This document shows, piece by piece, positions 17,119-44,388 of a stretch of DNA of 55,388 nt; within the stretch, counting starts at the first letter, position 1, and every line of letters starts with the position of its first letter. Below the pieces are notes generated by a model. It saw only the letters and a program-made list of their open reading frames with translations, had not been told where the DNA came from and did no database searches. Source of the stretch: Bacteroidales bacterium (GTDB lineage Bacteria > Bacteroidota > Bacteroidia > Bacteroidales > UBA932); contig JAFSJK010000049.1 in the NCBI GenBank assembly GCA_017439305.1, positions 1 through 55,388 of the forward strand. Reading direction: 5' to 3'. The translations under genes were made by a program, and so were the position numbers.

Positions 17119-18530
17119 ATATCAGACATTTCCTGCTCAGCAGCCTCCTTGTGCTCCTGAGTGCCGCCTCCTGCACGGAGAAGAAAGCGGCCGAGTATCC
17201 CATGTTTTGGACCTGGCTGGAAGACCTTCCGGACATCGACATGGAAACCGCCTTCACCCATATGGAGGAAGCGGGCCTTGACGCCGTCATGCTGCACGCA
17301 GCCTCCGCGGAAGATTACCGGAAAGACGTGGAAATCGCACGCCGGCACGGCATCACCGTCTACGCTTGGGTCTGGACCCTCAATCCCCCGCGCCAGGAAC
17401 GGCCGCAGATGCTCGAGGAGCATCCCGACTGGTTCAGCGTGAACCGGAACGGAGACAGCGTCGTCGACTACAAGGCCTATGTCAATTCCTATAAGTTCCT
17501 CTGCCCCGCCCTGCCGGAAGTCAGGGACTATCTCGTCCAAAAGGTGAAGGACATCTGCGCCATCGACGGTGTGGAAGGCATCTGCCTGGACTATTGCCGT
17601 CTGATCGACTGCGTGCTTCCGATCTCGCTCGCCTATAATTACAGTCTGTTCCAGGACGGCGAGGTCTTCCCCGAATACGACTTCGGCTATCATCCGGCGA
17701 TGCTGGAGAAGTTCCAGGCCCAGTACGGCTACGACCCCCGCGAAAAGGAAGACCCGACCCGGGATGAAACCTGGAACCAGTTCCGCTGCGACCAGGTGAC
17801 CGAGGTCGCCAACCTCCTGTGCGAAGCGGCCCATGCGGCCGGCAAGGCCGTCACCGCCTCTCCTTTCTCCGCAGCCGGCGTTTCCCGTTTCATGGTGTAC
17901 CAGGAATGGTGGAAATGGAACCTGGACCTCGTCCATCCGATGGCCTACACCGATTTCTACACGATGGATCCGTCCTTTGCCCGTGACGCCACGTTGGCGA
18001 ACCAGCTCGTGAAAGGTGCCGGAACCACCCTGATGTGCGGGGTGGACACCGAACTCGGCGGAGATCCCGAATTCATCTTCGAGAAGATGGACGCCGCCTT
18101 CAGTGCCGGTGCCCAAGGCATCTCCCTGTACACCATCGAGGGGCTTGAATCCCCCGACCTGCGCCGCCGGTTCAAGGTATATGCCGACAGTCTCCGGACC
18201 CTCCGGGCCGAAGGGAAACTGCCCGCCGCCCCCGGAATCGCCCCGGATACGGACCCGTTCGCCAATCCCGGCATGATGAAGGCCGTCGAAAGGAGCATCC
18301 AGCGACTGGTGGCAGGACAACCCATCCACGAGCGGAGCGTGAACGGCATGGTGGCGGACGATCCGTCCATCACCTATCCTTCCCTGGATCTCAGTGACTA
18401 TGAACTGGTTCGGGAGAACGACCGCATCAAAGTATACAACGTGAAAGACAACGCCAGCGGACGGAGCTTCGAAGTGCTCTTCGTCTGCTACGGCGACATC
18501 ATCTCCGGCTGGGACGTCCGGTCAATATAG
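17115..18530 (+). CDS. Putative glycoside hydrolase-like TIM-barrel lipoprotein
   Basis: 471 residues; ATG at 17115 overlaps the pncA stop. The signal peptide has a lipobox Cys (LSAASC). The body resembles the COG1649/GHL family of putative extracellular glycosidases: an early WTWLEDLPD strand, GITVYAWVWTLNP, GVEGICLDYCR (candidate catalytic Asp) and DLVHPMAYTDFY. The C-terminal about 80 residues form a separate small region. The substrate is unknown. Its place in an NAD-salvage operon is unexplained; it converges on the large cell-wall-type locus, overlapping its last gene by 9 nt, and may act on the same material as the two related lipoproteins at 25657 and 32116. Confidence 0.65.
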   Translation: MNIRHFLLSSLLVLLSAASCTEKKAAEYPMFWTWLEDLPDIDMETAFTHMEEAGLDAVMLHAASAEDYRKDVEIARRHGITVYAWVWTLNPPRQERPQMLEEHPDWFSVNRNGDSVVDYKAYVNSYKFLCPALPEVRDYLVQKVKDICAIDGVEGICLDYCRLIDCVLPISLAYNYSLFQDGEVFPEYDFGYHPAMLEKFQAQYGYDPREKEDPTRDETWNQFRCDQVTEVANLLCEAAHAAGKAVTASPFSAAGVSRFMVYQEWWKWNLDLVHPMAYTDFYTMDPSFARDATLANQLVKGAGTTLMCGVDTELGGDPEFIFEKMDAAFSAGAQGISLYTIEGLESPDLRRRFKVYADSLRTLRAEGKLPAAPGIAPDTDPFANPGMMKAVERSIQRLVAGQPIHERSVNGMVADDPSITYPSLDLSDYELVRENDRIKVYNVKDNASGRSFEVLFVCYGDIISGWDVRSI

Positions 18531-21155
18531 GTTCCAGTAAGGAATGGTTTCGGGCGTTCCGCCCGTCATCCGGAGCTGGTCTTCCGACAGATAGCGGCGG
18601 TCGATGGCCATCCGGAAAAGGTATGTCCTGAGCCAGTCGGCGTCCAGCTGGACATAGCCGTCCGCCCCGCGGACGGTGCCGAACGTGTTTTCCGACACCC
18701 AGTAGACAATCTTCTCGCCCTCCATCTTCACCCCGCACATCGCCATCGCATGCGTCGAGGTGACGTCGCGGCTGTCGAAACGGTCAGCCTTGGACATCGC
18801 CGAATGTACGCCTAACTGCGCATCCGAGGGGAACAGCTTGGAATCATAGACGCCCTCATCCGGAAGGGCATCCCGGTTCGTGTCGCAGGTGAAATAGAAA
18901 CGGTCCCCTGCCCGCAGGGATGCCAAGGCAAGCGCCTCCAACTCTTCGCAGGGCAGGTTCAGGAAGGTCCATTCGGCATCGTCGGCAGCCGACCGGGAGC
19001 CTTCCACCTTGTACATCCGATGATAAGGACGGCGCGGATCGTTCATCAGCATCACATACCGCCCGGAAAGCCCGGGAGCCACGAAAGCATCCCGATAGGA
19101 GGCAGGAGTATAGGTCTTGCCTTCATGCACGAAGGTCTTGGGCGGGTTGCCCAGGGCCATCGTCAACACGCGCCGGACATCCTCCAGGGCCTCCGCCCGA
19201 AGCTGTTCAGGCTCGGTCGTCGCCCGCATCCGGATCCCGTAAGAACGGAGCAGCGTCCTGAGTTCCTGCAGCAGCGGGGCGGAATTCTGAGACACCTTCG
19301 TCTCCGGCATCGCCGACGAAGGGACGACACCATACTTTTCAATCAGATAGACGGCATTCATGAAATGCCCGCCATCCCAGAGGGGACGGCTGAACAGTTT
19401 TTCATTGTATCGGCTGTCCACGGCTTCCTTGCGGTGGTTCCACACATTGACCAGGAAGAGGTTGGCCTTCTCCAGCATGTCCCAGTAATAGGGATAGACG
19501 ACGGAGAATTCCTGGTCGCCGCGCAGCACGTTCGCCGTCGCGAAATACCAGCAGCGGCCCGATTCGGCCTGGTTCTGGATCGCGGAAGACCGGAGGAAAA
19601 TCGTGAGGCCAGTCGTATCGGCCCGGGGCGTCGCTACCGGCTCGCCCAGGGGGCCGGGGCCGGGCAGGACCGCATCGGACAGGGCCGGCATCGCCGGATC
19701 CAGCGTAGCAGCGGAAAGGAAGGGCGGACGACGGTTCCCCATCATCGGCTTGAAGACAAAGTCCTCGCCGCGCCGGTCCAGGAACTCGGACCGGACCGCC
19801 TGCAACAGCTTGGCATCCGTCATCAGTTCCACCGCGCTGTAATAAAGGACCTTCGCCGCACCCAAAGCACCTTTCGTCCCGATCGTAGTGCCTCCGCTGG
19901 CAACCTGCTGCCAGCTGTGGCCGACACCGCCGGGGACGAAACAAGCGTAGCGGAAGCTGCCCGTAGGCACCGCCCAGGTCACATTTCCGACATCACTGGA
20001 GACATAGGCCTCATATCCTTCCTCGGATGGAGGGACGACAATGGACAGTTTGTCAATCAAGTCAGCGTCCACACCGGACTCCGCCGCCATCGCCCGGGCA
20101 AAAGCCAATTCCCGGTCATCCAGCCGGATACCGCCCACCTTCCCGAGGGATCGGCCCACCAGGTCGGCCATCGCATCGTTGGGGAGACGCTCATAATTGC
20201 CCGAAACCAGGTCATAATCCATCGTCGTTCCGGTCCCCATCGCCGCCCCCTCGGCGGCCTTCAGTGCCCGGGAAAGGATGTCCTGGACCACCTCCCGGGA
20301 AGGGCTCCGGAAGAAATATTTCACGGACGCCTTGTCCGGCACCACGTTCGGTGCCTTGCCGCCATCCGTGATCACATAATGGATGCGCGAAGTCTGGGGG
20401 ACGTGCTCACGCATCAGATTCATCAGATAATCAAACGCTTCCACCGCATCCAACGCAGAACGGCCCGCTTCCGGGGCACCTGAAGCGTGGGATGATTTCC
20501 CCGTGAACGTGAACTGCACCTGCACATTGGCCAGTCCGGACGTCCGGTTCACGGTATTGCGCGTATCGGGATGCCAGTCCAGCATGGCGTCCAAACCTTC
20601 GAAGACGCCTTCCCGCATCATATAAGCCTTTCCCCCGCCGCCTTCCTCAGCCGGACAGCCGAAAAGTTTCACGGTACCGGATGCACCCGTGGACGCCAGC
20701 CATTTGGATACGGCCACCGCTCCTGCGACCGAACCGGTTCCCAGCAGGTTGTGTCCGCAGGCGTGTCCCGCAGCCCCGGGAACGAGGACTTTCGGATAAG
20801 GCACCGTATCCTGCGACATCCTGGCGATGGCATCATATTCGGCCATCATCCCGATGACCGGCGAACCACTCCCGTAAGTGGCCACGAAGGCGGTGGGAAT
20901 GCCGGCCACTCCCCGCTCCACCGTGAATCCCTGCGACGTCAGGAAGGTCATCCACTGGTCCGCGCTGCGGTATTCGTCATAGGCGGTTTCTGCCAGGTTG
21001 AAAATCTGCTTCTGCAGGGAATCATACAGATGGAAATGGGAATCCAGGTAGCGGATGCCCACCATACCGTCGGATCTGCGTGCCTTCTTCGCGGAGAACG
21101 CAGGAGTCACGGAAAGACCGACAAGGGCGGCCAGGATGATCAGTCTGTATTTCAT
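18522..21155 (-). CDS. Secreted M20-type amidohydrolase fused to C1B (bleomycin hydrolase-like) cysteine peptidase
   Basis: 877 residues with a signal peptide (cleavage near AFSA, residue 21). Residues about 40-450 are an M20 peptidase of the AbgB/aminobenzoyl-glutamate hydrolase type: metal ligands in GHACGHN (His131, His135), Glu170/171 in CPAEEGGG, His195 in DWHPD, plus GKSSHAS. Residues about 515-877 match C1B papain-like aminopeptidases: Gln529/Cys535 in NQAESGRCWYFAT, His802 in STHAMAMCGV and Asn823 in VSENTFG. Both active sites look complete. The C1B part is somewhat shorter than free bleomycin hydrolases. The ATG overlaps the gltS stop, so its products, such as glutamate or acyl-glutamate, may be imported by GltS. 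Last gene of the minus-strand locus. Confidence 0.82.
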   Translation of the reverse strand: MKYRLIILAALVGLSVTPAFSAKKARRSDGMVGIRYLDSHFHLYDSLQKQIFNLAETAYDEYRSADQWMTFLTSQGFTVERGVAGIPTAFVATYGSGSPVIGMMAEYDAIARMSQDTVPYPKVLVPGAAGHACGHNLLGTGSVAGAVAVSKWLASTGASGTVKLFGCPAEEGGGGKAYMMREGVFEGLDAMLDWHPDTRNTVNRTSGLANVQVQFTFTGKSSHASGAPEAGRSALDAVEAFDYLMNLMREHVPQTSRIHYVITDGGKAPNVVPDKASVKYFFRSPSREVVQDILSRALKAAEGAAMGTGTTMDYDLVSGNYERLPNDAMADLVGRSLGKVGGIRLDDRELAFARAMAAESGVDADLIDKLSIVVPPSEEGYEAYVSSDVGNVTWAVPTGSFRYACFVPGGVGHSWQQVASGGTTIGTKGALGAAKVLYYSAVELMTDAKLLQAVRSEFLDRRGEDFVFKPMMGNRRPPFLSAATLDPAMPALSDAVLPGPGPLGEPVATPRADTTGLTIFLRSSAIQNQAESGRCWYFATANVLRGDQEFSVVYPYYWDMLEKANLFLVNVWNHRKEAVDSRYNEKLFSRPLWDGGHFMNAVYLIEKYGVVPSSAMPETKVSQNSAPLLQELRTLLRSYGIRMRATTEPEQLRAEALEDVRRVLTMALGNPPKTFVHEGKTYTPASYRDAFVAPGLSGRYVMLMNDPRRPYHRMYKVEGSRSAADDAEWTFLNLPCEELEALALASLRAGDRFYFTCDTNRDALPDEGVYDSKLFPSDAQLGVHSAMSKADRFDSRDVTSTHAMAMCGVKMEGEKIVYWVSENTFGTVRGADGYVQLDADWLRTYLFRMAIDRRYLSEDQLRMTGGTPETIPYWNLY

Positions 21156-22492
21156 ACGTCCGTTTTATTCTCTTGGCGCATCCAGCCCTTGGCCAAGGCC
21201 AGCCCCAGGATGCCGACGCCGGCCAGGGCGCACAGTCCTACGAAAAGCCAGCCGTATCCGCTGGCAAAAGCAAGGGGAGAAAAGCTGACCAGGGCGATTT
21301 CGACCGGCGCGATGTACAGATAGGCATAGGCATAATCATCCAGGCAGCCGCTTTTCCCTTCCGGGTCGGCGATGCGGAGCAGAGCGATGCCCATCGCCAT
21401 CGTCCCCGTGAACCATCCCCAGGTGAAGATGGATTTCTCGAAGGGGCAGGTCCGGTGGATCCGGGCCCCTACCCAGAAGACATACAGCAGGGTGAGCAGA
21501 AGTCCCACCACCAGCAGGATGACGAGGGGAACGATGTACCGCCCTACGATTTCCAGCCGGATGGAAGCGACGCCGAACGCCACCAGATAATCCGTGAACG
21601 CCCCGCTCAGATGGCCGATAATCGGCTGGGACAGATGTTCTTCCACTTTGACCCGGCCGATGAACCAGCGCTCCAGCAGCGCCACGATGAAGGCGCAGCT
21701 GAACACCGGCAGCATCAGGGCCGGCCAGAAATGGGCGATCAGCCGGGACAGGCCGTAACCGCCCACCGCCGCCAAGGCGATGACGGCGAAATTGAACGAC
21801 ATCGAATCCAGGGAAATGGCCGAGAAGGAGGCCAGGCCCATGCTTTTCCGCTTGTCAGGCGGAAGGATGCCCGTCCGGAGTTCGGGAGCCAGGGACTCGA
21901 AGGCGCACAGGAAGCGGGTCTTTCCATGCTGTGCTCCCCAACTGATGAGCCACATGCCCACGACCACCGACGCAATGATGCCGATCGTCGCGGAAGTCAT
22001 GGCCAGCGACTGCATTTCCTCGACGCCGTAGTTGGCGAATGACTCCCCGATGGCCGCCGCAGTCCCGTGTCCGCCGCAGAATCCGGCCGGCATGGACAGG
22101 CCGAACGAGGGAGCAACCGGCCAGATCAGGCTGAGGACCCACAGTCCCAAAGCGCCGCCCAGCGCCCATTGCAGCAGCATTCCGGCCTGCGAATAGGCCC
22201 ACATCCGGCCGATCCGGGAATTGCCGTCGGACTGGCTGCGGGCGGATGTAAAGGGGATACAGCTGAAAACCAAGGCGATAAGGATCCCCGCATAGGTGCC
22301 GAGATTCCCGGACAAGGGCAGCCATCCCAGCACTTCAGGCCCCAAGACAAGCCCGAAAAGACCGGCCAGCAGGCTGGGCGGAATGAAAAAACGCTGGACA
22401 AGCTTCACCTTCGAACGAAGGAATTTGCCCAGCAGCAGAAGAAGCGACACCAGGCCGACATCGACCAGCAGGGTCCAGGGGGTAAAGTCCAT
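21152..22492 (-). CDS. gltS: Sodium/glutamate symporter family transporter
   Basis: 446 residues, about 11-12 hydrophobic segments, inner membrane. The GltS-family signature GGHGTAAAIG lies near residue 140, followed by a run of small residues in the helix ATIGIIASVVVG. GltS imports glutamate with Na+. The family match is fair rather than close, and the protein is about 45 residues longer than the Escherichia coli enzyme, so the substrate may be another acidic amino acid. It overlaps the M20-C1B gene (ATGA) and lies 1 nt after the Ntn-hydrolase gene, which links transport to peptide breakdown. Confidence 0.75.
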   Translation of the reverse strand: MDFTPWTLLVDVGLVSLLLLLGKFLRSKVKLVQRFFIPPSLLAGLFGLVLGPEVLGWLPLSGNLGTYAGILIALVFSCIPFTSARSQSDGNSRIGRMWAYSQAGMLLQWALGGALGLWVLSLIWPVAPSFGLSMPAGFCGGHGTAAAIGESFANYGVEEMQSLAMTSATIGIIASVVVGMWLISWGAQHGKTRFLCAFESLAPELRTGILPPDKRKSMGLASFSAISLDSMSFNFAVIALAAVGGYGLSRLIAHFWPALMLPVFSCAFIVALLERWFIGRVKVEEHLSQPIIGHLSGAFTDYLVAFGVASIRLEIVGRYIVPLVILLVVGLLLTLLYVFWVGARIHRTCPFEKSIFTWGWFTGTMAMGIALLRIADPEGKSGCLDDYAYAYLYIAPVEIALVSFSPLAFASGYGWLFVGLCALAGVGILGLALAKGWMRQENKTDV

Positions 22493-22493
22493 A

Positions 22494-23645
22494 TCAATCG
22501 GCGGTTAACAGGGTTTGGAAGCGTTCGAAACGGAGCGAGGCCCCGGCGTTGTAGCGTTCAACCGCCCGGAGGTCGAAGCCGGTCCGGTCCATCTCCGACG
22601 CCAGACGGCGGCCGGCCTTGAGCTCGGCCTGTTCCGCCTTCCGGACCTGACGGAGAATAGTCTTCAAGGCAGAGACATCCAAGTACTTCTCATCCCATGC
22701 CAGCGGGCGTACAGACCGCTTCAGTTCCACGGCCAGCCGGTTTGCCGGAGCATCGCCGGTCAGCATGGACGGGATCCGCTCCCCTGCCGCCACCCAAACG
22801 GGGATGGCATAGCTGCAGGGAGTATAGCCGAGGGCGCACCAAAGGATGCCGCTGTCGGCCTTTCCGCCGGGCGCGACACCTTCCAAGACAAGCGAGGCCG
22901 TCGTTGTACTGCGCGGGATGAAATCGTGTTCATACAGGTACGCTCCGCGACTTGCCTTCAAAGCATCATCACCCGTCAGGGCATTCCGGAACGTGCGTCC
23001 GGTTTCCAGGAAAAAACCGGGGGTGAATCCCCGGCGTGCCTGGCGTGCCGTCACCTGCTCCATCGTCGAATACCGGGCAAAACCGCGGCCGCGGCCGGGT
23101 TCTCCGGACAGGGAAAAGTTGGTGCGAAAGAGATATCCGCCTTTGGGAACATCAAACCGCACATACGCCGTATCCGACACCTCGAAATAAGCGGCACCCC
23201 CGCATGCATCGATAACGGCAAAGTTGGCACTGAGCTGCATCGGATGCTCCTTCGCGACGAGCATCGCCTCGAATTCATCCAGGGAGGAACAGGTGCCCAG
23301 CGCCAAGGTCATCAGTTCCCCGTTCCGGGTTCCGGCGACCCCGACGGAATCCGGCCGGAGATTGTAGGACAGGTTGTTGGTAATGGCGAAACCGGCCTCG
23401 TTGATGCCGGCATAGGCGTTCCTGCAGTCTTTGTCTGCAGTCGGGAAGAGAGCGGTAAAGCCATACTTATCCCCGCGAACATAGGCAATCCGGTTATAAT
23501 CGTCGCTTGCATCCCGCTGTTTCCAGATCATCGGGCGCCCGGTTCCGCTGGCCTCAGCGGAAACAACGGCCGTCGTGCAGGGAAAAGCCGGGACGGAGCA
23601 AAGCAGCAGCAGGCTACTTGCGAATCTTATAACCGTAGTACGCAT
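22494..23645 (-). CDS. Secreted Ntn-hydrolase (C45/linear amide hydrolase-like)
   Basis: 383 residues. After a signal peptide (about 1-22) comes CTTAVVS, with Cys23 in the position of the N-terminal nucleophile of Ntn-hydrolases; WKQRD and GINEAGFAITNN are the typical substrate-pocket strands of the C45/acyl-transferase and choloylglycine-hydrolase-like families. Signal peptidase cleavage itself could expose the nucleophile. Such enzymes hydrolyse linear amide bonds. The start overlaps the end of the MFS gene by 32 nt, an unusually long overlap in this operon, but no later start would keep the signal peptide. Substrate unknown; an acyl or peptide amide from the locus substrate is likely. Confidence 0.72.
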   Translation of the reverse strand: MRTTVIRFASSLLLLCSVPAFPCTTAVVSAEASGTGRPMIWKQRDASDDYNRIAYVRGDKYGFTALFPTADKDCRNAYAGINEAGFAITNNLSYNLRPDSVGVAGTRNGELMTLALGTCSSLDEFEAMLVAKEHPMQLSANFAVIDACGGAAYFEVSDTAYVRFDVPKGGYLFRTNFSLSGEPGRGRGFARYSTMEQVTARQARRGFTPGFFLETGRTFRNALTGDDALKASRGAYLYEHDFIPRSTTTASLVLEGVAPGGKADSGILWCALGYTPCSYAIPVWVAAGERIPSMLTGDAPANRLAVELKRSVRPLAWDEKYLDVSALKTILRQVRKAEQAELKAGRRLASEMDRTGFDLRAVERYNAGASLRFERFQTLLTAD

Positions 23646-24804
23646 AGAACATGATCAACAGGTAGAACGGCAGGCAGATCCAATAGGCGTTCTGGGCACC
23701 CGCCCAGTCCTTCATTGCCCCGAAAAGCAAAGGAATCAACGCGCCGCCGCCGATAGAGGCGACCAGAAGCGAAGAGCCTTTCTTGGTGAACTTCCCAAGG
23801 TCCACAATCGCAAGGGGCCAGATGGCCGGATACATCAGTGAGCAGGCGAAACTCAGCAGGGCCACGCACCAGACCGACACCTGCGGCGGGGTCAGGACGA
23901 TGAGAAGGGAGTCCACAACGGCAATCCACGTGCAGATCCGGAGTGCCTGTACCTGGGATATGACCTTGGGAATGAACAAGATACCAAGGATATAACCCGC
24001 CGCCATGCCGATACCGGGCCAGATGGTGTAGCTCTCCGGATGGGCCAGTCCCAGTTCCTGCGCATAGTCCAGTACGGTCAGGAGCGCCAGGTTCTCCACC
24101 CCTACGTAAACGAACAGGGCGAGGGCGCCCAGAACCAGGTGCGGGAACTGCCACAGGGATGTCTTTCCGGCGGCATAAGGACAGTCTTCCTCGTTCTCCT
24201 CCCCTTCCGCCTTGATTTCCTCCAGCGGAGCGAAGAAAGTGACAATGCCCAGCACCACAACCACAGCGATGATGATATACAGCGGCTTGTCCAGGTCCAC
24301 CAGTCCGACAGCCTCGATGGGCTTGCGCGTCACCGCGGCGATGAAAATTGACGGCAATGCCAGCGCGCAGGAATTGCAGATGCCCATGATGCTGATCCGG
24401 CGGGCCGCACTGTCGATGGGGCCGAGAATGGTCACATACGGGTTGATGGCTGCCTGCAGGACAGTGTTGGCCGTGCCGCTGATGAAGCAGGCCAGCAGGT
24501 AGAGGGCGAAACTCTCCAGCCGCGCAGCAGGGATGAACAGGGCGAAAGCCAGGGCGAACAGGAAGAACGACAGGGACATCGTCCGTTTGTAGCCGATCTT
24601 CGCAATGATGGACGAAGCCGGGAAACTGAACACCAGGAAGGCCAGGAACGTGGCGGCGATCACCAGGTACGACTGGGCCGACGTGAGGTGCAGATTGTTC
24701 TCCAGGAACGGGACGAAATACCCGTTGATACCCGTGGCAAAGCCCACGGTAAAGAACATCATCCCGATGAAAGCGAGCGGAACCAGGTATTTGTTCTTGC
24801 CCAT
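23614..24804 (-). CDS. FHS-type MFS sugar transporter
   Basis: 396 residues, 12 predicted membrane helices, inner membrane. The sequence resembles the fucose/glucose-galactose/GlcNAc permease (FHS) family: GFATGINGYFVPFLE in helix 1 and GTANTVLQAAINPYVTILG near helix 4-5 are typical. With an amino-sugar kinase 7 nt upstream and GH20 enzymes in the same operon, GlcNAc (as in NagP) or another amino sugar is the likely substrate; this is context-based. A cytoplasmic loop rich in Glu lies mid-protein (about 192-205). Confidence 0.82.
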   Translation of the reverse strand: MGKNKYLVPLAFIGMMFFTVGFATGINGYFVPFLENNLHLTSAQSYLVIAATFLAFLVFSFPASSIIAKIGYKRTMSLSFFLFALAFALFIPAARLESFALYLLACFISGTANTVLQAAINPYVTILGPIDSAARRISIMGICNSCALALPSIFIAAVTRKPIEAVGLVDLDKPLYIIIAVVVVLGIVTFFAPLEEIKAEGEENEEDCPYAAGKTSLWQFPHLVLGALALFVYVGVENLALLTVLDYAQELGLAHPESYTIWPGIGMAAGYILGILFIPKVISQVQALRICTWIAVVDSLLIVLTPPQVSVWCVALLSFACSLMYPAIWPLAIVDLGKFTKKGSSLLVASIGGGALIPLLFGAMKDWAGAQNAYWICLPFYLLIMFYAYYGYKIRK

Positions 24805-24811
24805 ATGGCCG

Positions 24812-26556: not shown

Positions 26557-26558
26557 GG

Positions 26559-27638: not shown

Positions 27639-27662
27639 AATCAATTAGGTATTTGACTGGCA

Positions 27663-27690
27663 GCTGCGGGGACGGTCAAGTCCCCGCAGC
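27663..27690 (-). terminator. Intergenic hairpin between repeat lipoprotein and transglutaminase genes
   Basis: A perfect 11-bp stem (27663-27673 with 27680-27690) and a 6-nt loop lie just after the stop of the repeat lipoprotein gene. There is no clear T tract on the minus strand, so it may be a weak terminator or a processing/stability hairpin that sets the ratio of the two products. Confidence 0.5.
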
Positions 27691-27699
27691 CGAAAAGGA

Positions 27700-32070: not shown

Positions 32071-32115
32071 AACTGTTTTGTGTTAATGGTTTGGAAAGTA
32101 AATGGTTATCTAGTG

Positions 32116-33477: not shown

Positions 33478-33489
33478 CTGACAGTTCCT

Positions 33490-34317: not shown

Positions 34318-34320
34318 AGT

Positions 34321-36153: not shown

Positions 36154-37967
36154 GGCTTGAAAGTTTTGGTCGTCGTCTTGCCCAGCGGCTTGCCGGAACG
36201 GGAGAAACCGCGGGCCTTGATCACGGCATCCTTGTCCACCATGAAGGGCACGCCGTCATACACCGGGCTCTTCTTTGTGGGCTCGCTGCCGTCCAGGGTA
36301 TAATGCACCACGCCGGCCGGGTCGTCCAGCTCCAGGTTCATGGGCTTCGGGAAATCCAGGTTGCGGTCGTAGTCGAAGATTACCTCGTGGAATACCGGAC
36401 AATAAGCAATGTCTTTCTGGTCCAGGCGTTTGAGGATCTTGGGCATCCGTTCGCGGAACGACTCCCAATCCTTGTTGGAACGGGCGGTCCAGCCCACTTC
36501 GGCTGCCGCGACGTTCCGCGGGAAAGCCTGGTATTCGGCCGTCGCATTGTCCGGAATGTACTCTGTCCAGAGACAGGTCTCGTAACCGACGATATACTTG
36601 GCACTCAGGTCCGCCAGGGAATCCACGACCGGATAGTAGTTGTACACTTTCTTGAGCGGCATGAAGATTTCCTGCGCCACGTCATCGGCCTGGTCCTCCT
36701 GCTTGTTGTCAAGGTAGCACCAGCGGTTGGGGGTGAGGATCACCCGGATGCCGCGCTTGATGCCCTTGGCACACGGGGCATGGCCGCGGTAGGACATGGC
36801 GATCGGGTCTTCCAGGGCGCCGCCGTCCAGGATTTCATCCCAGCCGATGACCGTCTTGCCGTGCTTCCGGAGGAAATCGCCCATCCGCTTGACGAAGAAG
36901 GTCTGGAGTTCCTCCACCGAATCCAGCCCGAGGACCGTCATCAGGTCCTGGCAGTACTGGCTTTGCAGGTAGGCATCCTTCGGGGCCTCGTCGCCGCCGA
37001 TATGATACAGGGGTGAAGGGAACAGTTCGAAGAGTTCGTTGAAAACATCCTCCAGGAAACGGAAGGTGGTCGCCGTAGGGGCATACAGGTTCTTCCAGAT
37101 GCCCCAGCGGGTCAGTACCTCATAGGTGCTGTCCGGGAAGCAGCTCAATTCGGGATAAGCCGCGAGGGCGGCCGTGCAGTGGCCGGGAATCTCCACCTCG
37201 GGAACCACGGTGACGCAGCGCCGGCGGGCGTATTCCACGACCTCGCGGATGTCGTCCTTGGTATAGAAACCGCCATGCGGAATCCCGTTGCCGATGCCGC
37301 TGTGCCAGGACGTCTCCTTGCGCCAGGCCCCCACTTCGGTAAGGCGGGGATATTTGTCGATCTGGATACGCCAGCCCTGGTCCTCGGTCAGATGCCAGTG
37401 GAACATGTTCTGCTTGTGCATCGCCATCAGGTCGATGAACTTCATGATCTCCTCCTTCGGGAAGAAGAAGCGGCCGCTGTCGAACAGGGTTCCGCGGTAC
37501 CAGAACGCGGGTTCATCCTCGATGGTGCAGCAAGGGACCGTCCATTTCTTGACGCCCTTTGCCTTGGCCTTCCCGTAAATCTCCGCGGGAAGGAGCTGAA
37601 GGACCGTCTGAAGGCCGTAGAAAGCACCGTTGACTTCGGTTGCCTCGATGAGGATCCACGTGGGGGTCACCTCCAGCCGATAGGCCTCCTTTCCGAGCCC
37701 CTCCACCTTCCGCAGGATGATGGGCCCGTTCTTTCCCTGGAGTCCAAAGCCGGTCGCCCGGGCCACCTGGGCCCTGAAATCGTCGGCAATCTCCGCGAAG
37801 GAGTCATCCTCCACCAGAAGGCCGGTCTGACTGTTCAGGACAAACTCCCCCGGAGCCTCGACCAGGCTCTTGGGCAGGGGGACCAGGTCATACCGCGGAG
37901 CGGCCGTGAGGAGCGAAGCCCCCAGGGCCAAACCCGCAAGCAAACATATGAATCTTCCGGTTTTCAT
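36150..37967 (-). CDS. GH20 beta-N-acetylhexosaminidase, copy B
   Basis: 605 residues with an N-terminal signal peptide (ending near LLTAAPRYD) rather than a lipobox, so probably periplasmic where copy A is lipid-anchored. Same layout: GH20b domain, barrel with FWYRGTLFDSGRFFF, FHWHLTEDQGWRIQID, PEVEIPGHCTAALA and catalytic Asp326-Glu327 in YHIGGDEAPK, and a C-terminal YTLDGSEPTKKSPVY domain. The two copies are clearly paralogous but well diverged, so they may differ in linkage or location. ATGA overlaps at both ends. Confidence 0.93.
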   Translation of the reverse strand: MKTGRFICLLAGLALGASLLTAAPRYDLVPLPKSLVEAPGEFVLNSQTGLLVEDDSFAEIADDFRAQVARATGFGLQGKNGPIILRKVEGLGKEAYRLEVTPTWILIEATEVNGAFYGLQTVLQLLPAEIYGKAKAKGVKKWTVPCCTIEDEPAFWYRGTLFDSGRFFFPKEEIMKFIDLMAMHKQNMFHWHLTEDQGWRIQIDKYPRLTEVGAWRKETSWHSGIGNGIPHGGFYTKDDIREVVEYARRRCVTVVPEVEIPGHCTAALAAYPELSCFPDSTYEVLTRWGIWKNLYAPTATTFRFLEDVFNELFELFPSPLYHIGGDEAPKDAYLQSQYCQDLMTVLGLDSVEELQTFFVKRMGDFLRKHGKTVIGWDEILDGGALEDPIAMSYRGHAPCAKGIKRGIRVILTPNRWCYLDNKQEDQADDVAQEIFMPLKKVYNYYPVVDSLADLSAKYIVGYETCLWTEYIPDNATAEYQAFPRNVAAAEVGWTARSNKDWESFRERMPKILKRLDQKDIAYCPVFHEVIFDYDRNLDFPKPMNLELDDPAGVVHYTLDGSEPTKKSPVYDGVPFMVDKDAVIKARGFSRSGKPLGKTTTKTFKP

Positions 37968-39301
37968 TCACTTTCAAGGGTTTCACGGATGGTGCGGATG
38001 ACGCCCTCCCGGTAAGTGGAAGGCATCCGTTCCGAAAGCGGATAGGGAGCCTTGATGTACACGTGCATCTGCTCGATTTCATATTCATAGCCCTTGCGCA
38101 CCTCGTAGGCGTGCTCCGAGGGCAGGTAGGAATTCTGGCCGTTGGTGTAACCGGCAAAGAAGACGGTCCGGTCCGGGAAGGCGGCGCGGGCCTCCATCTG
38201 GTATTCGCAGAAAGGCTCGCCGTCCGAGAAGAAGAAGACGATTCCGTCCACGTCCAGGCCGTGCAGATGGTAGCGCAGCTTGGAAGGGACAGGACCGTTG
38301 TCAAAGCGTTCCAGGATTTCGTCTTTCCAGTTCATCACGTCATCCGCGAAGCGAGGGAACGTGGTCCGGGCCGTGGCAGCGAGCGAATCGGCATGACGGG
38401 TCACCGCCTCCGGCGTCACTTCCGCGATCTGGTAAGGAAGGTCCACGGTGTCGTTCACAAGGCGAAGAATCCCCTTGGAAGAAACCTTCTCAAACGGAAT
38501 GTCTTTCAGGGCGTCAGAAAGCTCCTTGCCGCACTGCTCGGCATAATCCACCCGCTTGGGACCGAGCGCCGGGTCCATGTTGCCCGCGGCGCCCGTGAGC
38601 TGGAACACTTCCCCGCCCCAGGCTTCGGACAGGTACCGGGCATTCACCCCGGCATAGTCCGAAGAAAGCAGGTAGCTGCCCGGGCCCATGCACACCGGAT
38701 GGCAGGCCAGGTTCACGATGGAAACCACCGGCTTGCCATGCTGGAGGAAACGGGCCACATAGACATTGTGGTCCACGGGGCCTTCCTTCTCGCAGCGGTT
38801 GCCGTTGATCAGGGTCTCCCCTTTACCGACCTCCAGCGCGAAGGGTTTTCCTTTCTCGCCGATGGTTTTCACGGCATTGCCGACCACCGTGGCAACCATC
38901 CGCTCCTTCCAGGCCCGGTTGGTGCCGCCCGTATAGTTGGACGCTCCCCCGGAACGCGGGGCGGAATGCGTGTGGATGTTGTGCATCAGGATGTTGTCCA
39001 GCGCGAGGCCCGACTGTTCGGCGATCATCGTCCGGATGGTGTCGGAAATGGCCGGCGAGATCTCCATCAGGTCGTTCGAGATGATGCAGACCTTCTGCGT
39101 GCCGTCCCCGAGCACAAGGCAATGGGTGTACAGGTGCTGGTGGATGCCGTCGGACAGGGTGTCGCGGGCGGCGAAGCCGGCCAGCACGACATGCTCGTCC
39201 TCCGTCGTGGAAATGTCGGCGGAGTGGTAGCTCATCGTCAGTCCCCCCTTGTTACAGGAGAGGACTGACAACAGGAGCAGCAGGATCCAAACGCGTTTCA
39301 T
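37964..39301 (-). CDS. Neutral/alkaline ceramidase-family lipoprotein
   Basis: 445 residues from ATG 39301, which overlaps the susD stop (ATGA); the slightly longer frame begins with TTG. Lipobox LSVLSC gives Cys16. The N-terminal domain of neutral ceramidases is recognised by HQHLYTHCLVLGDG, ISNDLMEIS, NIHTHSAPRSGG (zinc-site histidines) and NLACHPVCMGP. Ceramidases hydrolyse an N-acyl amide. Related lipoproteins occur in glycan-utilisation loci, where deacylation of an amino sugar or lipid may be the role; here an N-acyl-amino-sugar amidase is possible but unproven. Confidence 0.8.
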   Translation of the reverse strand: MKRVWILLLLLSVLSCNKGGLTMSYHSADISTTEDEHVVLAGFAARDTLSDGIHQHLYTHCLVLGDGTQKVCIISNDLMEISPAISDTIRTMIAEQSGLALDNILMHNIHTHSAPRSGGASNYTGGTNRAWKERMVATVVGNAVKTIGEKGKPFALEVGKGETLINGNRCEKEGPVDHNVYVARFLQHGKPVVSIVNLACHPVCMGPGSYLLSSDYAGVNARYLSEAWGGEVFQLTGAAGNMDPALGPKRVDYAEQCGKELSDALKDIPFEKVSSKGILRLVNDTVDLPYQIAEVTPEAVTRHADSLAATARTTFPRFADDVMNWKDEILERFDNGPVPSKLRYHLHGLDVDGIVFFFSDGEPFCEYQMEARAAFPDRTVFFAGYTNGQNSYLPSEHAYEVRKGYEYEIEQMHVYIKAPYPLSERMPSTYREGVIRTIRETLESE

Positions 39302-41274
39302 CAATTGTAACCCGGATTTTGTTCAAGTTTTCCCTCACTCTTGGTGATCTCGTTGCGCGGGATCGGCATCAGGTAGTTGCGGCCGCTCTCGGGGAAATAC
39401 CGCGGCGTGGGGTTCTGGTTCAGGATGCAGTCGCCGTAGTCGATCGTGTATTCCTTGCCGAGCCACTTGTACGTGATGATGTACTCGATGGGCTTGCCGT
39501 AACGCGGGTCGCTCTTGAAGCCCGAATAGACATAGGACTTGCTGGGCTCCGTATTGGCCCAGTAGTAATTGGTGTTGTTCTTGGCCGGATCGTACAGGCG
39601 GGCGACGCGGTAGACGGTGTCCATCTGGGTTCCTTTCTGGAGGACCATCGTCCGGGCGCTGGCCAGGGGGACATTCTCATAGAAGTCGGCCATCTTCCAC
39701 CGACGGAGGTCGAAGTAGCGGAAGGTTTCGGCATACAGTTCCACGCGGCGTTCGTTCACCAGGCGGTCCCACAGGTCAGAACCGGATTCCGTCACCTCGG
39801 GCATCATCACGTCCGGACGCTGCCGGATCTTGTTGATGTATTCGCGGCAGATGTCCTCCCGGCCCAGCATGTAGGCGCACTCGGCATAGTTCAGGTACAT
39901 TTCGGCCAGGCGGAACCAGGGATACAGTTTGCTGCCGGTCTGGGATTCGGAAATGTATTCCGTGGGCAGGTACCACTTGTAGAGTTCCAGGCCGCCGTGG
40001 TTGCCGGAAGTGGTGTGCTTGGCCTTGGAAGTGTAGGCAGGCTCTTCCTTTCCGAGGGCGAAATCCTCGCGGGTCATGTTGTCATACAGATAGTAGAGAA
40101 GGAGCGGATCCTCCTTGTAGTTTCCGTTCTTGTCGGTGCTTCCGTAAGGGTAGAACGGGGCGGCGATACAATAGTAGAAACGCGGGTCACGGTTCTTGTA
40201 AGGATGCTTTTCGTCATAGCCGGAGCCTTCCTCGAACCATTTCTTGCCGTTCTTCATCTCGAAATCGATCTGGGCGGCCTGGGAAGGATGGAAGGCTTCC
40301 CAACCGTTGTAGTACTCCACCGTGTAGAGCAGTTGCGCTTTCTTGGTGTAGTTGTCGTCGGCATCGGAAGTGGCCACGAAATACTTGGCCCAGATCAACT
40401 CGGGGGAATTCACGTCCTTCCAGATGCCGTCATAGGTATCGTCCAGGGAATAGGCGCCGTCCACGTCGGCCCGGTCCACGATGGCCTTGGCCGCATCGAA
40501 CGCGCGCTGCCACTTGTCCCGGCTGTAGGTTCCCCGGAAAACCCCGCCCTGCGGCTGTTCCGGATCGTTGAAGAGCTTCGAGGCGGCAACCAGGGTCAGC
40601 CGGCTCTTGAGTGCGAGGACGACGTCCTTGTTGACGCGCCCCAGCGGGGTATCCCCCTTGGCAGGCAGCATCTCGTAAGCCCGCTGCAGGTCATCCAGGA
40701 TGAAGTCCACGCAGGTGTCGAAATCGGCACGCTCCACCGTAAAGTCATCATCCAGGGAGTGGGGCTTGGAAATGAGCGGAACACCGGCATAGCGCTGAAT
40801 CAGCAGGAAATAGGACCAGGCCCGGAGGAAATAGACCTCTCCGCACAGGCGGGTCTTCGCGGCCTCGGACATCTTGCTGCCGTTCTCATCGATGTAGGTC
40901 AGGAAGTAATTCATCCGGTAGATCCACTCGTAGGTGCGGTTCCAGATGTTCAGGACGGTGGTACGGGTATTGTGCGCCTGGCCGCCTTCCTTGATGTACA
41001 TCACATTGTCCGGATCCATGTAGCCGGAGGCGATGTAGCGGGTGGAAGTGCCGCCATAACGGAAGTATCCCTCGTCCGTGATGCAGCCCACGTTACCTTC
41101 CTGGTAAGGGTCGGGCAGGACGGTGTACAAGGCGTTCACATAGGATTCCGCCAGGGCGTCGCTGTTGAACACGGCGTCTTCGGAGAGCTTGTCGAGAGGG
41201 GTCTTGTCCAGGAAGCCGTCCTTGCAGGCCACCAGGGCGAACGCCGCAGCAATCAGGATATATATCTTTTTCAT
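39301..41274 (-). CDS. susD: SusD/RagB-family glycan-binding lipoprotein
   Basis: 657 residues; lipobox AFALVAC, Cys17, then the near-invariant CKDGFLDKTPLD start of SusD proteins. TPR-like N-terminal half (about 80-250: VYFLRAWSYFLLIQRYAGVP), SusD C-terminal region with LYPWFRLAEMYLNYAECA and ERRVELYAETFRYFDLRRW. It sits at the outer surface over the SusC barrel and captures oligomers. Encoded 6 nt after susC. At 657 residues it is longer than the SusD prototype (about 550), with extra loops that may serve a peptide-bearing ligand. Confidence 0.93.
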   Translation of the reverse strand: MKKIYILIAAAFALVACKDGFLDKTPLDKLSEDAVFNSDALAESYVNALYTVLPDPYQEGNVGCITDEGYFRYGGTSTRYIASGYMDPDNVMYIKEGGQAHNTRTTVLNIWNRTYEWIYRMNYFLTYIDENGSKMSEAAKTRLCGEVYFLRAWSYFLLIQRYAGVPLISKPHSLDDDFTVERADFDTCVDFILDDLQRAYEMLPAKGDTPLGRVNKDVVLALKSRLTLVAASKLFNDPEQPQGGVFRGTYSRDKWQRAFDAAKAIVDRADVDGAYSLDDTYDGIWKDVNSPELIWAKYFVATSDADDNYTKKAQLLYTVEYYNGWEAFHPSQAAQIDFEMKNGKKWFEEGSGYDEKHPYKNRDPRFYYCIAAPFYPYGSTDKNGNYKEDPLLLYYLYDNMTREDFALGKEEPAYTSKAKHTTSGNHGGLELYKWYLPTEYISESQTGSKLYPWFRLAEMYLNYAECAYMLGREDICREYINKIRQRPDVMMPEVTESGSDLWDRLVNERRVELYAETFRYFDLRRWKMADFYENVPLASARTMVLQKGTQMDTVYRVARLYDPAKNNTNYYWANTEPSKSYVYSGFKSDPRYGKPIEYIITYKWLGKEYTIDYGDCILNQNPTPRYFPESGRNYLMPIPRNEITKSEGKLEQNPGYN

Positions 41275-41280
41275 ACGCGC

Positions 41281-44200
41281 TTAGAAAGTAAGTTTGACAC
41301 CGGTGTTGATGATCCGCATCTGCGGGTAGGTCTGATAGCCTTCATCCGAGGTCTCGGGGTCCACGAACTTGAGTTCGGACAGGGTGAGGAGGTTGTAACC
41401 GGCCACATAGAAGCGGAGGCCGGAGACACCCAGCTTCGGGACGAGCCGGTTCATCGGGATCGTATAGCCGATTTCGAGGTTCTTCAGGCGCAGGAAGGCC
41501 GCGTTCCGGGAATAGAAGCTGGAACGGTTCACGCCGCCGTTGCTGACGGTGGAGCCGATCCGGGGCTGGTCGGAGTTGGGGTTGTCCTTGGTCCATGCAT
41601 TCTCGGCCGCAAAGCGGTCCAGGTTGCCGGACACCGGGTCCATCATCGGAGAATAGTAGTAACGGGCCAGGGCCTGTCCCTGGAGCAGCATCGAGAAGTC
41701 GAAGTTCCGCCAGGTGATGTCCACGCTGGTACCGAAGACCATCTGCGGGACGACGGTGTAGTCCATCCGCTTGCGGTCCAGGTTGGTGATTTCGTTGTCA
41801 CCGTCCAGGTCCTCGAACCAGAAGTCGCCGAGGGTGGCACCGCTCATCTGGTGATGGTTCGCCAGGTCCTCCTCGGTCTTGTTGATGCCGCCCACCTGAT
41901 AGTACAGGGAAGCACCCATCGGATGACCTTCCTGCTTCATGTAGTCGTGTCCTTCCGGCCAAGGAGCCTCGTCCATGTAGATGATGGTGTTCTTCGCATA
42001 CATCACATTGCCGTTCACGCGGTAGCGGAAGTCGCCGATCCGGTTCTCATGGCTGAGCTGGAGCTCGACGCCCCGGTTGACGACCTCGCCGATGTTCTCG
42101 TCCGGCAGGTTGTTGGTCAGACCCGTATAGTACGGGATGGAAGCGTTGCGGGAGCAGAGGATGTTGGACCGGTGGGTGTAGAACCCTTCCAGTTCCCAGC
42201 TGAAGAGGCCGTTGCGGATGTTGCCGTCCAGGCCCAGGTTCCAGGTGCGGGCGACTTCCCAGGTGACGTTGGGATTGGGAATGGTGCCCGGGATGATGAA
42301 GTTCACCTCCTTGCCGTCGAACAGGGTCTTGTAGGAATAGGCCGACGTATAGCCGTAGGTGGTCATGTACTGGAACGGGTCGATCTGGTCGTTACCCTGC
42401 TCACCGTAGGAGCCGCGGATCTTGAGGTTCGTCAGCCACGGCCAGTTGTCCTTGATGAAGGATTCCTCGGAGATGCGCCAGCCGGCGGAGACGCCGGGGA
42501 AGATGCCCCAACGCTTCCCTTCCGGGAAGTTCTCGGAACCGTCGAAACGGACCAGGGCCTGGAACAGGTACTTGCTCTTGTAATCGTACCCGATACGTCC
42601 GAAGAAGGAACGGCGGGCGGTTTCGCGGGCATAGCCGTTGATGGCGTACCAGCTCTTGTCGGCCGATCCGGCAAAGAACTCGTCCAGCAGGTCGGAATCA
42701 TAGGAATTGATGCCCGCCTTGAAATAATCCAGCCGGTAGGAGTTCTGCTCAAAACCGGCCAGGGCCGTCACGTGGTGACCGCTGAAATCACGGTCGTAGT
42801 TGATGTTCGCATTGATGGCCGTATTCTTCGTATGGCGCTGATACTCATGCAGGACCGGCGTGGGCCAGTAGGAGTTCGAACGCTCCTCGAAGAGCTCGGT
42901 GATCTCGTCGTAGCGGAAATAGTTCCAGTTCTGCTGCCAGTTCTTGTTGAAGGTGCTCACCACGTCATAGGCCAGATGGCCGTTCACCGACAGGCCCTTG
43001 GTCAGGGCGCTGAGGTCCCAGGTGGCGGTGAAGGTCGTATTGATGGTGTTGATGGTCGTACGGTCGTAACCGGTCAGGTCCTGCACCAGGACAGCCGGGT
43101 TCGTACCGCCGCGGAGCAGCCTGCCTTCATAGCCCTGTGCGGCACCCGCCCCGTCGGGGAAGTAAGCGGCACCGGTAGGACGCATGCGCATCGCGATGTA
43201 GAAGATACCGTAGGAGTCCGACGGGAAGGCCGAATAGTTCTTGTGCTGCTGGCGGGCGTTGATGTCCACCCCCAGCTTGAGGCTCTTGGTGACCTGGATA
43301 TCCAGGTTCGAGCGCAGGTTGAACTGGTTGTAATTCGTGGCGCTCTTGTAGTAGATACCGTCCTGGTACTGACCGTTGAACTGCACGAAATAAGCCGCCT
43401 TTTCCGATCCACCGTTGATGCTCACGCCGTACTTGTGCTGGGCGGAGACGGGTTTCACGATCTCGCCGAGCCAGTCGGTGTTGGGATAGTTGATGGGGTC
43501 GTCCTGGTCGATGTAGTGCTGGATCTGGGCGTCGTTGTACACGGGCGCACTGCCGCTGATCGCCAGGCTCTTGTTGTAGGCGGTGGTATACAGGACGGCA
43601 TCGGCCAGCTTGACCATGCGGGTAGGCTGCTGGAGACCCAGGTCGTAGGTGAAGCTCACCTTCGGTCTCTCGTTGTACTTACCGCGCTTGGTGGTCACCA
43701 GGATGACACCGTTCGCCGACCGGGCGCCGTAGATGGCGGCCGAAGCATCCTTCAGGACGTTGATGCTTTCGATTTCGTCACCGGTCAGACGGCCGAACTC
43801 GTCTCCACGGCCCTGCACGCCGTCGATGATGATGAGCGGGCTGTTGTCTCCGAGGGTACTGCGGCCGCGGATGAACATCACCGCGTCGTCACGTCCCGGC
43901 TCGCCGGAACGGTTGTTCACGATGACGCCCGACATACGGCCTGCAAGGCCCTGGGACAGGTTCACGGATGAGTTCTTGACCAGTTCTTCACCGGTGGTGG
44001 TCGCCACCGAGCCGGTCAGGGTCACTTTCCGCTGGTTGCCGTAACCGATGGCCACGGCCTCGTCAAGGACCTCATTGTCGTCCCGGAGGACGAAATCGAT
44101 GGCTGTACGGCCGTCCACGGCGACGGACTGTTCTTCATAGCCCATCATGTTGACGACCAGGGTGCCCCTGGCCGGAACGCCGCTCAGGGTGTACCGTCCG

Positions 44201-44388
44201 CCGGAACCGGTCATCGAACCGTTGGATGTTCCCTGGACATAGACCATCGCTCCGACAATGGGTTCTCCCTTGGTGTCGGAAACGGTGCCCTGCACCCTCA
44301 GGGTGCCGTTCTGGCCCCAAAGGGCCAGGCCCGTGAGGCAGAGCAGGACGCCCGCCGCAAGAAGCATCAGAATGGATTTCCTTCTCAT
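41281..44388 (-). CDS. susC: SusC/RagA-family TonB-dependent transporter
   Basis: 1035 residues. Signal peptide (to about 26), carboxypeptidase-regulatory-like domain (about 30-108: GTVSDTKGEPIVGAMVYVQG), plug (about 112-225 with IRGRSTLGDNSPLIIIDGV and ESINVLKDASAAIYGARSA), then the outer-membrane beta barrel ending in a terminal Phe. No N-terminal STN domain, so anti-sigma signalling is unlikely and control by the divergent DeoR regulator fits. First gene of the 26-kb minus-strand transcription unit, with a complete promoter at 44417-44447. Confidence 0.94.
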   Translation of the reverse strand: MRRKSILMLLAAGVLLCLTGLALWGQNGTLRVQGTVSDTKGEPIVGAMVYVQGTSNGSMTGSGGRYTLSGVPARGTLVVNMMGYEEQSVAVDGRTAIDFVLRDDNEVLDEAVAIGYGNQRKVTLTGSVATTTGEELVKNSSVNLSQGLAGRMSGVIVNNRSGEPGRDDAVMFIRGRSTLGDNSPLIIIDGVQGRGDEFGRLTGDEIESINVLKDASAAIYGARSANGVILVTTKRGKYNERPKVSFTYDLGLQQPTRMVKLADAVLYTTAYNKSLAISGSAPVYNDAQIQHYIDQDDPINYPNTDWLGEIVKPVSAQHKYGVSINGGSEKAAYFVQFNGQYQDGIYYKSATNYNQFNLRSNLDIQVTKSLKLGVDINARQQHKNYSAFPSDSYGIFYIAMRMRPTGAAYFPDGAGAAQGYEGRLLRGGTNPAVLVQDLTGYDRTTINTINTTFTATWDLSALTKGLSVNGHLAYDVVSTFNKNWQQNWNYFRYDEITELFEERSNSYWPTPVLHEYQRHTKNTAINANINYDRDFSGHHVTALAGFEQNSYRLDYFKAGINSYDSDLLDEFFAGSADKSWYAINGYARETARRSFFGRIGYDYKSKYLFQALVRFDGSENFPEGKRWGIFPGVSAGWRISEESFIKDNWPWLTNLKIRGSYGEQGNDQIDPFQYMTTYGYTSAYSYKTLFDGKEVNFIIPGTIPNPNVTWEVARTWNLGLDGNIRNGLFSWELEGFYTHRSNILCSRNASIPYYTGLTNNLPDENIGEVVNRGVELQLSHENRIGDFRYRVNGNVMYAKNTIIYMDEAPWPEGHDYMKQEGHPMGASLYYQVGGINKTEEDLANHHQMSGATLGDFWFEDLDGDNEITNLDRKRMDYTVVPQMVFGTSVDITWRNFDFSMLLQGQALARYYYSPMMDPVSGNLDRFAAENAWTKDNPNSDQPRIGSTVSNGGVNRSSFYSRNAAFLRLKNLEIGYTIPMNRLVPKLGVSGLRFYVAGYNLLTLSELKFVDPETSDEGYQTYPQMRIINTGVKLTF

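Follow-up and report, generated by a model that had tools for sequence, protein, structure and literature searches.

A Sus-type locus in rumen Bacteroidales probably directed at pseudomurein, the wall polymer of Methanobacteriales

Introduction

Pseudomurein, the wall polymer of the Methanobacteriales, contains L-amino acids only and a glycan of beta-1,3 N-acetylglucosamine (GlcNAc) and N-acetyltalosaminuronic acid, according to the part of PMC11915815 available to us. The described proteins closest to the subject of this work are PeiW and PeiP (MEROPS C71) and a protein of the methanogen virus Drs3, all of which join N-terminal pseudomurein-binding repeats (PMBR), or units like them, to a C-terminal Cys-His-Asp domain of the transglutaminase fold. 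An enzyme that appears to be of the same build is encoded in the window, that is, the whole stretch of 55,388 nucleotides analyzed here, which is an entire contig (JAFSJK010000049.1; contig C44 of our genome G000) from a 92.6% complete genome of a Bacteroidales bacterium (GCA_017439305.1; UBA932). It differs from PeiW, PeiP and the Drs3 protein in being a bacterial lipoprotein encoded in a nutrient operon, in having a Transglut_core domain without a C71 match, in its weak PMBR scores and in that its activity is predicted. Based on sequence comparison and structural models, the surrounding genes probably form a Sus-type locus for the utilisation of pseudomurein in rumen Bacteroidales.

Two other kinds of described systems resemble the locus. 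With the Sus-type loci of Bacteroidota it has in common a SusC/SusD pair, lipoprotein glycosidases, a candidate surface binder, an inner-membrane sugar permease and a neighbouring regulator, but its regulator is of the DeoR family, its binding protein is of the PMBR type, many copies carry a peptide arm and the likely substrate is an archaeal wall. Tannerella forsythia-type use of N-acetylmuramic acid (MurNAc), with the kinase MurK and the etherase MurQ, employs a kinase of the same family, a MurQ-family partner and a permease, whereas the present locus has a divergent MurQ-like clade, PMBR proteins and no NamZ within the block. NagS, a GlcNAc-6-phosphate dehydratase, is a MurQ-related SIS enzyme that acts on a sugar phosphate without a lactyl ether; the part of PMC12680351 at hand reports it only in Streptomycetaceae, and we set it beside the locus MurQ-like protein by description, not by sequence. 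In the open-access literature, outside which most subscription journals lie, no bacterial locus for pseudomurein use was reported among the matches listed, and in the accessible portions of the open-access papers that mention both pseudomurein and polysaccharide utilization the two are not connected.

Results

The transglutaminase

Two lipoproteins of the locus have PMBR-like regions.

26559..27644, minus strand: PMBR-transglutaminase lipoprotein (Transglut_core 63.8 bits); likely start ATG 27638
about 27518-26991: its PMBR-like region
about 26990-26562: its transglutaminase domain
27700..32070, minus strand: giant 1456-aa lipoprotein with BACON (found by Pfam) and repeats, a candidate surface-binding protein
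about 31959-31465: its PMBR-like N-terminal domain
about 31470-30736: repeat R1
about 30726-30487: BACON
about 30465-27703: repeats R2-R5

Among 50,697 phage records, the closest match of the transglutaminase was the pseudomurein-binding-repeat protein of Drs3 (E=2e-25), the gene of which is annotated PMBR and lies two genes past a tail gene. In the reverse comparison, the Drs3 protein scored 94.7-132 bits on the transglutaminases of the locus and its relatives, 60 bits on vir080 and no more than 43 bits on 23 other Bacteroidota transglutaminases. The Cys-His-Asp triad within the transglutaminase fold is intact; it is invariant in 25 members and common to Drs3, PeiP and vir080. When the structural model was searched against BFVD, a library of viral structures, PeiP came first by E-value (2.1e-9 over 321 columns, with both domains aligned), the next row standing at 1.7e-4. 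A 36-row tree, from which five long-branch rows had been dropped (PeiW, PeiP, GEN_L018, GEN_L011 and GEN_L013) and in which the locus rows had been thinned, set the locus enzymes, Drs3 and vir080 apart from other transglutaminases at 95/86, the branch of vir080 being long; the narrower group of the locus enzymes and Drs3 received only 85/39. The tree thus gives weak support to kinship with Drs3. As far as comparison tells, the enzyme would work like Pei.

IMG/VR was scanned with a Drs3-first alignment, with Drs3 alone and with the locus alignment, and no relative was found by these scans; therefore no homologue from a rumen methanogen virus could be compared. The model also gave a weak match (E=4e-3) to a second Drs3 protein, of 1403 aa (BFVD row A0A385AHB8). 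Positions 2309-2938 of MT837774.1, a 6.2-kb unannotated 'Bacteriophage sp.' record from human faeces, align with the transglutaminase over its residues 141-346, at 23.9% and E=4e-3.

PMBR-like regions

Pfam finds three PMBR units in the Drs3 protein. From the alignment and the helices and strands of the model, the window transglutaminase appears to have about three PMBR-like units. By hhalign, its N-terminal region matched 11 Pei/Drs3 repeats at 87.9%, the Drs3 N-terminus at 88.2% and the aligned Pei/Drs3 N-termini at 58%. The N-domain of the giant lipoprotein matched the transglutaminase N-terminus at 98.4% and the Drs3 N-terminus at 87.6%; with the aligned Pei/Drs3 N-termini it gave 1.5%. 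Controls for the profiles of the transglutaminase, of the giant N-domain and of giant R1 comprised 37 segments from the 13 other genes of the block and 60 shuffles, and all stayed at or below 1.7%. Pfam PMBR was matched at E<=1 in 21 of the 25 transglutaminase members, the window protein included (best E=1.6e-5). A chance match to PMBR was rejected on the profile comparison and on this count. The original prediction of a PMBR-transglutaminase is supported on the same grounds, with the match in the window protein itself below the Pfam cut-off. The giant repeat lipoprotein that it named is confirmed too; its PMBR-like N-terminus, seen by hhalign, had been overlooked.

By eye, the two N-termini resemble each other in predicted secondary structure. 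Searches of the PDB with the giant N-terminal model were uninformative on its PMBR part because the BACON domain filled the matches. Repeats R2-R5 of the giant match the R1 profile at 99.7-100%, and they are linked to PMBR only through the R1 profile and R3, which reach the transglutaminase N-terminus at 84.6% and 88.1%, respectively; R2, R4, R5 and the single R1 sequence reach at most 1.7%. The R1 profile gave 0.5% with the isolated Pei/Drs3 repeats, 0.2% with the aligned Pei/Drs3 N-termini and 1.2% with the Drs3 N-terminus.

As stated in the part of PMC3124540 available, binding to pseudomurein needs three PMBR motifs and two suffice for lysozyme-treated bacterial spheroplasts, while intact murein is left unbound. 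The PMBRs of PeiR, an active lysin from a provirus of a rumen methanogen, score 12.4 in Pfam, according to the portion of PMC6189367 at hand; a weak Pfam score is therefore compatible with function.

Gene content

The remaining genes counted into the locus are the following.

44552..45316, plus strand: DeoR-family regulator, divergent and upstream of the operon (DeoRC 132 bits, HTH_DeoR 52 bits in Pfam)
41281..44388, minus strand: SusC-like TonB-dependent transporter (Plug and CarbopepD_reg_2 above cut-off)
39301..41274, minus strand: SusD-like surface lipoprotein (SusD_RagB 158 bits)
37964..39304, minus strand: neutral-ceramidase-like lipoprotein (Ceramidase_alk 41.8 against 32.1 bits; H-T-H and CHP motifs)
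36150..37967, minus strand: GH20 beta-N-acetylhexosaminidase a (Glyco_hydro_20 353 bits; HxGGDE motif)
34321..36153, minus strand: GH20 beta-N-acetylhexosaminidase b, likely a lipoprotein (Glyco_hydro_20 408 bits; HxGGDE motif)
33490..34317, minus strand: divergent MurQ-like SIS protein (PRK05441, NF003915)
32116..33477, minus strand: lipoprotein with lamin-tail-like (LTD) and DUF4015-like glycosidase domains (both Pfam matches below cut-off; DYIRF motif)
25657..26556, minus strand: DUF4015 glycosidase-like lipoprotein (DUF4015 34 against 27 bits)
24812..25660, minus strand: MurK/NagK-type amino-sugar kinase (PDB relatives 1zxo, 1zbs, 8oqk, 8ow7, 8oqw and 8ow9, E<=2.8e-55)
23614..24804, minus strand: NagP/GluP-type sugar permease (gluP TIGR01272 206.5 against a cut-off of 202.55)
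22494..23645, minus strand: C45/AAT-type exported Ntn-hydrolase (AAT 30.7 against 23.2 bits; NF040521 below cut-off)
21152..22492, minus strand: GltS-like glutamate symporter (Pfam Glt_symporter 54.5 against 26 bits; NCBIfam 52 against 310.75)
18522..21155, minus strand: M20 amidohydrolase fused to a C1-type aminopeptidase (Peptidase_C1_2 256 bits; TIGR01891 229 against 154; catalytic-site motifs present)
16758..18530, plus strand: GHL10 glycosidase-like protein, convergent with the operon end (GHL10 39.6 against 27.9 bits)

Fifteen adjoining minus-strand open reading frames fill 44388-18522 with intergenic gaps of -32 to +55 bases, a pattern expected of one operon, as the original prediction had it, and their families are largely those it listed. 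The SusC and SusD homologues are adjacent with a 6-base gap, as in Sus-type loci, and the carbohydrate-active enzymes encoded in the same direction comprise both GH20s and a pair of DUF4015-like proteins, of which one is below cut-off. Export and lipoprotein signals were read by eye in the locus proteins. The DeoR regulator is, by its position, likely part of the locus, and so is the GHL10 gene; the locus may then be wider than 15 genes. Some of the earlier labels need adjustment. The 'amidase' is a neutral-ceramidase-like protein and a candidate sugar-peptide amidase. The two glycosidase-like lipoproteins hold for the DUF4015 protein, the matches of the LTD protein being below cut-off, and the glutamate symporter holds at the level of the Pfam family and not at that of NCBIfam. 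Scanning the window with Rfam and for tRNA genes gave no matches. Elsewhere in the window lie a 1668-aa BspA-type leucine-rich-repeat protein (47565-52571), upstream of the locus and past a UvrD helicase gene (45324-47501, plus strand), and a CotH kinase domain fused to Big_2 Ig-like repeats (4166-6121).

The MurQ-like protein

The MurQ-like protein is the sole match of its family in its own genome at E<=1e-3. It passed the broader subfamily model NF003915 (286.7 against 168 bits) and missed the equivalog cut-off of TIGR00274 (239.3 against 302 bits). TGGK, EVPNTYG and SASG[CN]TPY are common to all 15 aligned MurQ-like proteins of the locus, that of the window included, while, of the 29 other Bacteroidales sequences that score best, 27 have the canonical loops TSGR, PPT[FY]G and AASGTTPY. 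In a 67-row tree, 40 divergent and 27 canonical rows were split at 100/100, with a long-branch warning for one row (L087). Both aligned Glu positions, which we take to be the catalytic residues of MurQ, are kept. A second MurQ-family gene is present in 14 of the 22 locus-bearing genomes of the family; among the matches listed, both genes are divergent in G1173, and the second is 46% identical in G908, G1096 and G1187. Because NagS, a relative of MurQ, dehydrates GlcNAc-6-phosphate (PMC12680351, in the part available), the MurQ family can change its substrate.

NagB is present elsewhere in the genome, and a search of the genome for NagA found nothing. The NamZ family is represented by two genes on other contigs, C13 and C66, which suggests that murein is recycled independently of the locus. 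In one relative (L031), the gene past the permease is a fusion of glucosamine-6-phosphate isomerase and PIG-L de-N-acetylase (L031:14029-15969), which fits GlcNAc-6-phosphate as the end point. A second cluster (L089:9373-15910 and L090:3734-12247) has a relative from the divergent MurQ clade together with a DegT aminotransferase, a ceramidase-like protein and a permease; L089 adds a BadF-type kinase and a DeoR regulator, and L090 a SusD gene and a kinase similar to that of the locus.

These results bear on the first alternative, in which the locus scavenges bacterial murein: MurNAc would be imported, phosphorylated by the MurK-type kinase and split by MurQ, while the PMBR-like units would bind GlcNAc on broken murein. 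The GHL10 family, which includes E. coli DigH, adjoins the locus with one gene, the kinase is closest to MurK-type structures and the MurQ-family protein has retained its two Glu positions. PMBR can, moreover, bind lysozyme-treated bacterial spheroplasts, although the PMBR domain assayed in print left intact murein unbound (both from the available part of PMC3124540). We regard this alternative as unlikely, since the MurQ-like protein belongs to a separate clade with TGGK and EVPNTYG where 27 of 29 others have TSGR and PPT[FY]G, the NamZ genes are elsewhere in the genome and the family scans of the 15-gene block returned no family known to be specific for murein peptides. The argument of the original prediction that MurQ speaks for murein as well is weakened; as strong evidence for murein it was rejected on the divergent clade, the altered loops and the score below the equivalog cut-off.

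Conservation and distribution

Searching 84,980 species genomes with a pattern made from two aligned transglutaminase sequences yielded 24 loci, which lie on 23 contigs; the record titles all read uncultured Bacteroidales or Bacteroidia or Bacteroidales bacterium. Ten of the record titles name the rumen or the omasum, nine carry RUG codes, which presumably denote rumen genomes, and five carry SRR codes only. Gene order is largely kept, with exceptions, and this recurrence in 24 other loci argues that the arrangement is not a matter of chance. Counting only loci long enough to tell, the genes upstream of the transglutaminase are kept in 20/21 (giant), 16/16 (LTD-DUF4015), 14/16 (MurQ-like) and 14/15 (GH20b) cases, and those downstream in 20/23 (DUF4015), 20/22 (kinase), 17/20 (permease) and 15/19 (C45). 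The GltS-like gene was found in 13 and M20-C1 in 11 of 19 testable loci, and neither was present in any of four sister loci without PMBR proteins. Some of the absences reflect rearrangement (L033, L036), and others reflect inserted genes, which move the rest past the end of the DNA examined (L038, L039, L042, L044). L030 is without the giant and the DUF4015 protein, and the more distant copies L151 and L154 have no peptide genes past the permease. The proposition that peptide genes always accompany PMBR proteins was withdrawn, several copies, such as L031 and L032, being without them. GHL10 homologues stand near the same end of the locus in L029, L051, L052 and L148, in varying order or strand. 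Further observations are two transglutaminase loci close together on one contig (L036 and L052, JAFRSW010000022.1), an extra SusC-SusD-LTD-giant set in the L036 copy and in L033, and an S46 peptidase past M20-C1 (L027:15847-17907).

The transglutaminase marker is rare, occurring at E<=1e-30 in 22 of 398 genomes of the family, our genome included, and in 2 of 25 genera; a sample of 395 genomes from the phylum gave our genome itself and one partial match over the transglutaminase domain. A divergent MurQ-like gene with at least 61% identity to that of the window is present in 22/22 marker genomes against 10/376 others. Five of these ten, which have no transglutaminase at the cut-off, were examined. 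The sister loci L142-L145 keep parts of a core of SusCD, ceramidase-like protein, GH20, kinase, permease and C45; over about 19.5 kb they have no giant, DUF4015 proteins, GltS-like carrier or convincing M20-C1 (L144 gave one 24-bit match). A GH18-GHL10 fusion of about 820-840 aa occurs in L142 and L143, and L142 also has a weak N-formylglutamate-amidohydrolase-like lipoprotein. The fifth genome, G1194, is represented by two short contigs (L146, L147), one of which carries the giant and the LTD-DUF4015 gene, so it may hold a broken-up copy. In our reading, the family has an amino-sugar core to which a pseudomurein module was added, with peptide genes in many, not all, copies.

A second alternative is that the locus serves chitin-like or host or protozoal amino-sugar glycans, the PMBR-like units being general GlcNAc binders. 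The two GH20s with chitobiase-type ends, the GH18-GHL10 fusion of the two sister loci and the lack of peptide genes in some copies would suit it, but it accounts neither for the Pei-like transglutaminase nor for the double peptidase and GltS-like carrier found in many copies, and we consider it improbable.

Discussion

The reading of the locus as a system for pseudomurein rests on the homology to Drs3, the PeiP-like model, the PMBR-like N-terminus of the giant, the kept gene order and the relatives named after rumen or omasum. The same evidence supports the earlier suggestion of SusCD-type harvesting of a wall polymer, possibly pseudomurein. From the anatomy, homology, conservation and co-occurrence of the genes we infer the substrate, the bonds cut and the order of steps. 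The giant and transglutaminase-like lipoproteins would hold wall fragments by their PMBR-like units, and the transglutaminase-like enzyme would cut an isopeptide cross-link in the manner of PeiW and PeiP, a C71 endoisopeptidase being one that cleaves the Ala-epsilon-Lys bond. The DUF4015 and GHL10 proteins together with the GH20s would cut the amino-sugar chain, and separation of the peptide from its uronic acid may fall to the ceramidase-like protein. The pieces would then be imported by SusCD. The L-Glu, L-Ala and L-Lys peptides would be used by M20/C1, C45 and the GltS-like carrier, and the permease, the kinase and the MurQ-like protein would feed GlcNAc-6-phosphate to NagB. It is highly improbable that the transglutaminase instead joins, anchoring methanogens to the cell or to its surface proteins so that hydrogen can be exchanged, with ordinary glycan use left to the other genes. 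In favour of this reading, it has been proposed that pseudomurein is cross-linked by transglutaminases (PMC2812497 and PMC11915815, in the parts available). Against it, the closest relative is a virus protein annotated PMBR two genes past a tail gene, the first viral structure match is a lytic endoisopeptidase, and adhesion alone would not account for the importers and peptidases.

Several observations weigh against pseudomurein as the substrate. In the window transglutaminase the Pfam PMBR match is weak and confined to one unit (17.1 bits against a cut-off of 24.9), Pfam PMBR is absent from the giant N-terminal fragments (0/17), and the giant N-domain matches the isolated Pei/Drs3 repeats at only 2.0%. 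The PeiP match in BFVD has a low TM-score of 0.25, the second row having 0.28, and in the PDB search other transglutaminases fit the catalytic domain equally well or slightly better. Peptidase_C71 (PF12386), which is strong in PeiP and PeiW and reaches 20.7 bits in Drs3, just below the 22-bit cut-off, has no match in the locus transglutaminase at E<=10; the enzyme is therefore not classed as C71. A 60-row transglutaminase tree leaves Drs3 unplaced, and no activity report was found for the Drs3 PMBR protein. C45, the GltS-like gene and M20-C1 are missing from L031 and L032 in the DNA examined. No enzyme for N-acetyltalosaminuronic acid was identified, and the activity of every locus protein is predicted from comparison. 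Finally, PMC3124540, in the part available, reports binding of PMBR domains to bacterial spheroplasts treated with lysozyme and the presence of PMB motifs in a few further bacteria.

We also put forward, as a tentative and somewhat doubtful proposal, a complete rumen-bacterial pathway for both the glycan and the peptide of pseudomurein. In it, the MurQ-like enzyme would not act on a lactyl ether but would 'peel' the imported disaccharide: from its 6-phosphate the 3-O-glycosyl N-acetyltalosaminuronic acid would be eliminated, so that GlcNAc-6-phosphate remains. The DUF4015 lipoproteins would be the first pseudomurein glycan hydrolases. The peeling step is proposed because of chemistry, not data.

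If the pseudomurein reading is true, the locus would be, so far as the literature searches show, the first described bacterial system that harvests an archaeal cell wall, and it would link gut Bacteroidales to the turnover of methanogens or even to predation on them. New enzymes that bind or cut pseudomurein, perhaps with glycan hydrolases among them, would also become available for use in DNA extraction, in imaging and in the control of livestock methane. The fate of methanogen walls in the rumen, a neglected question, would become testable with a handful of recombinant proteins.

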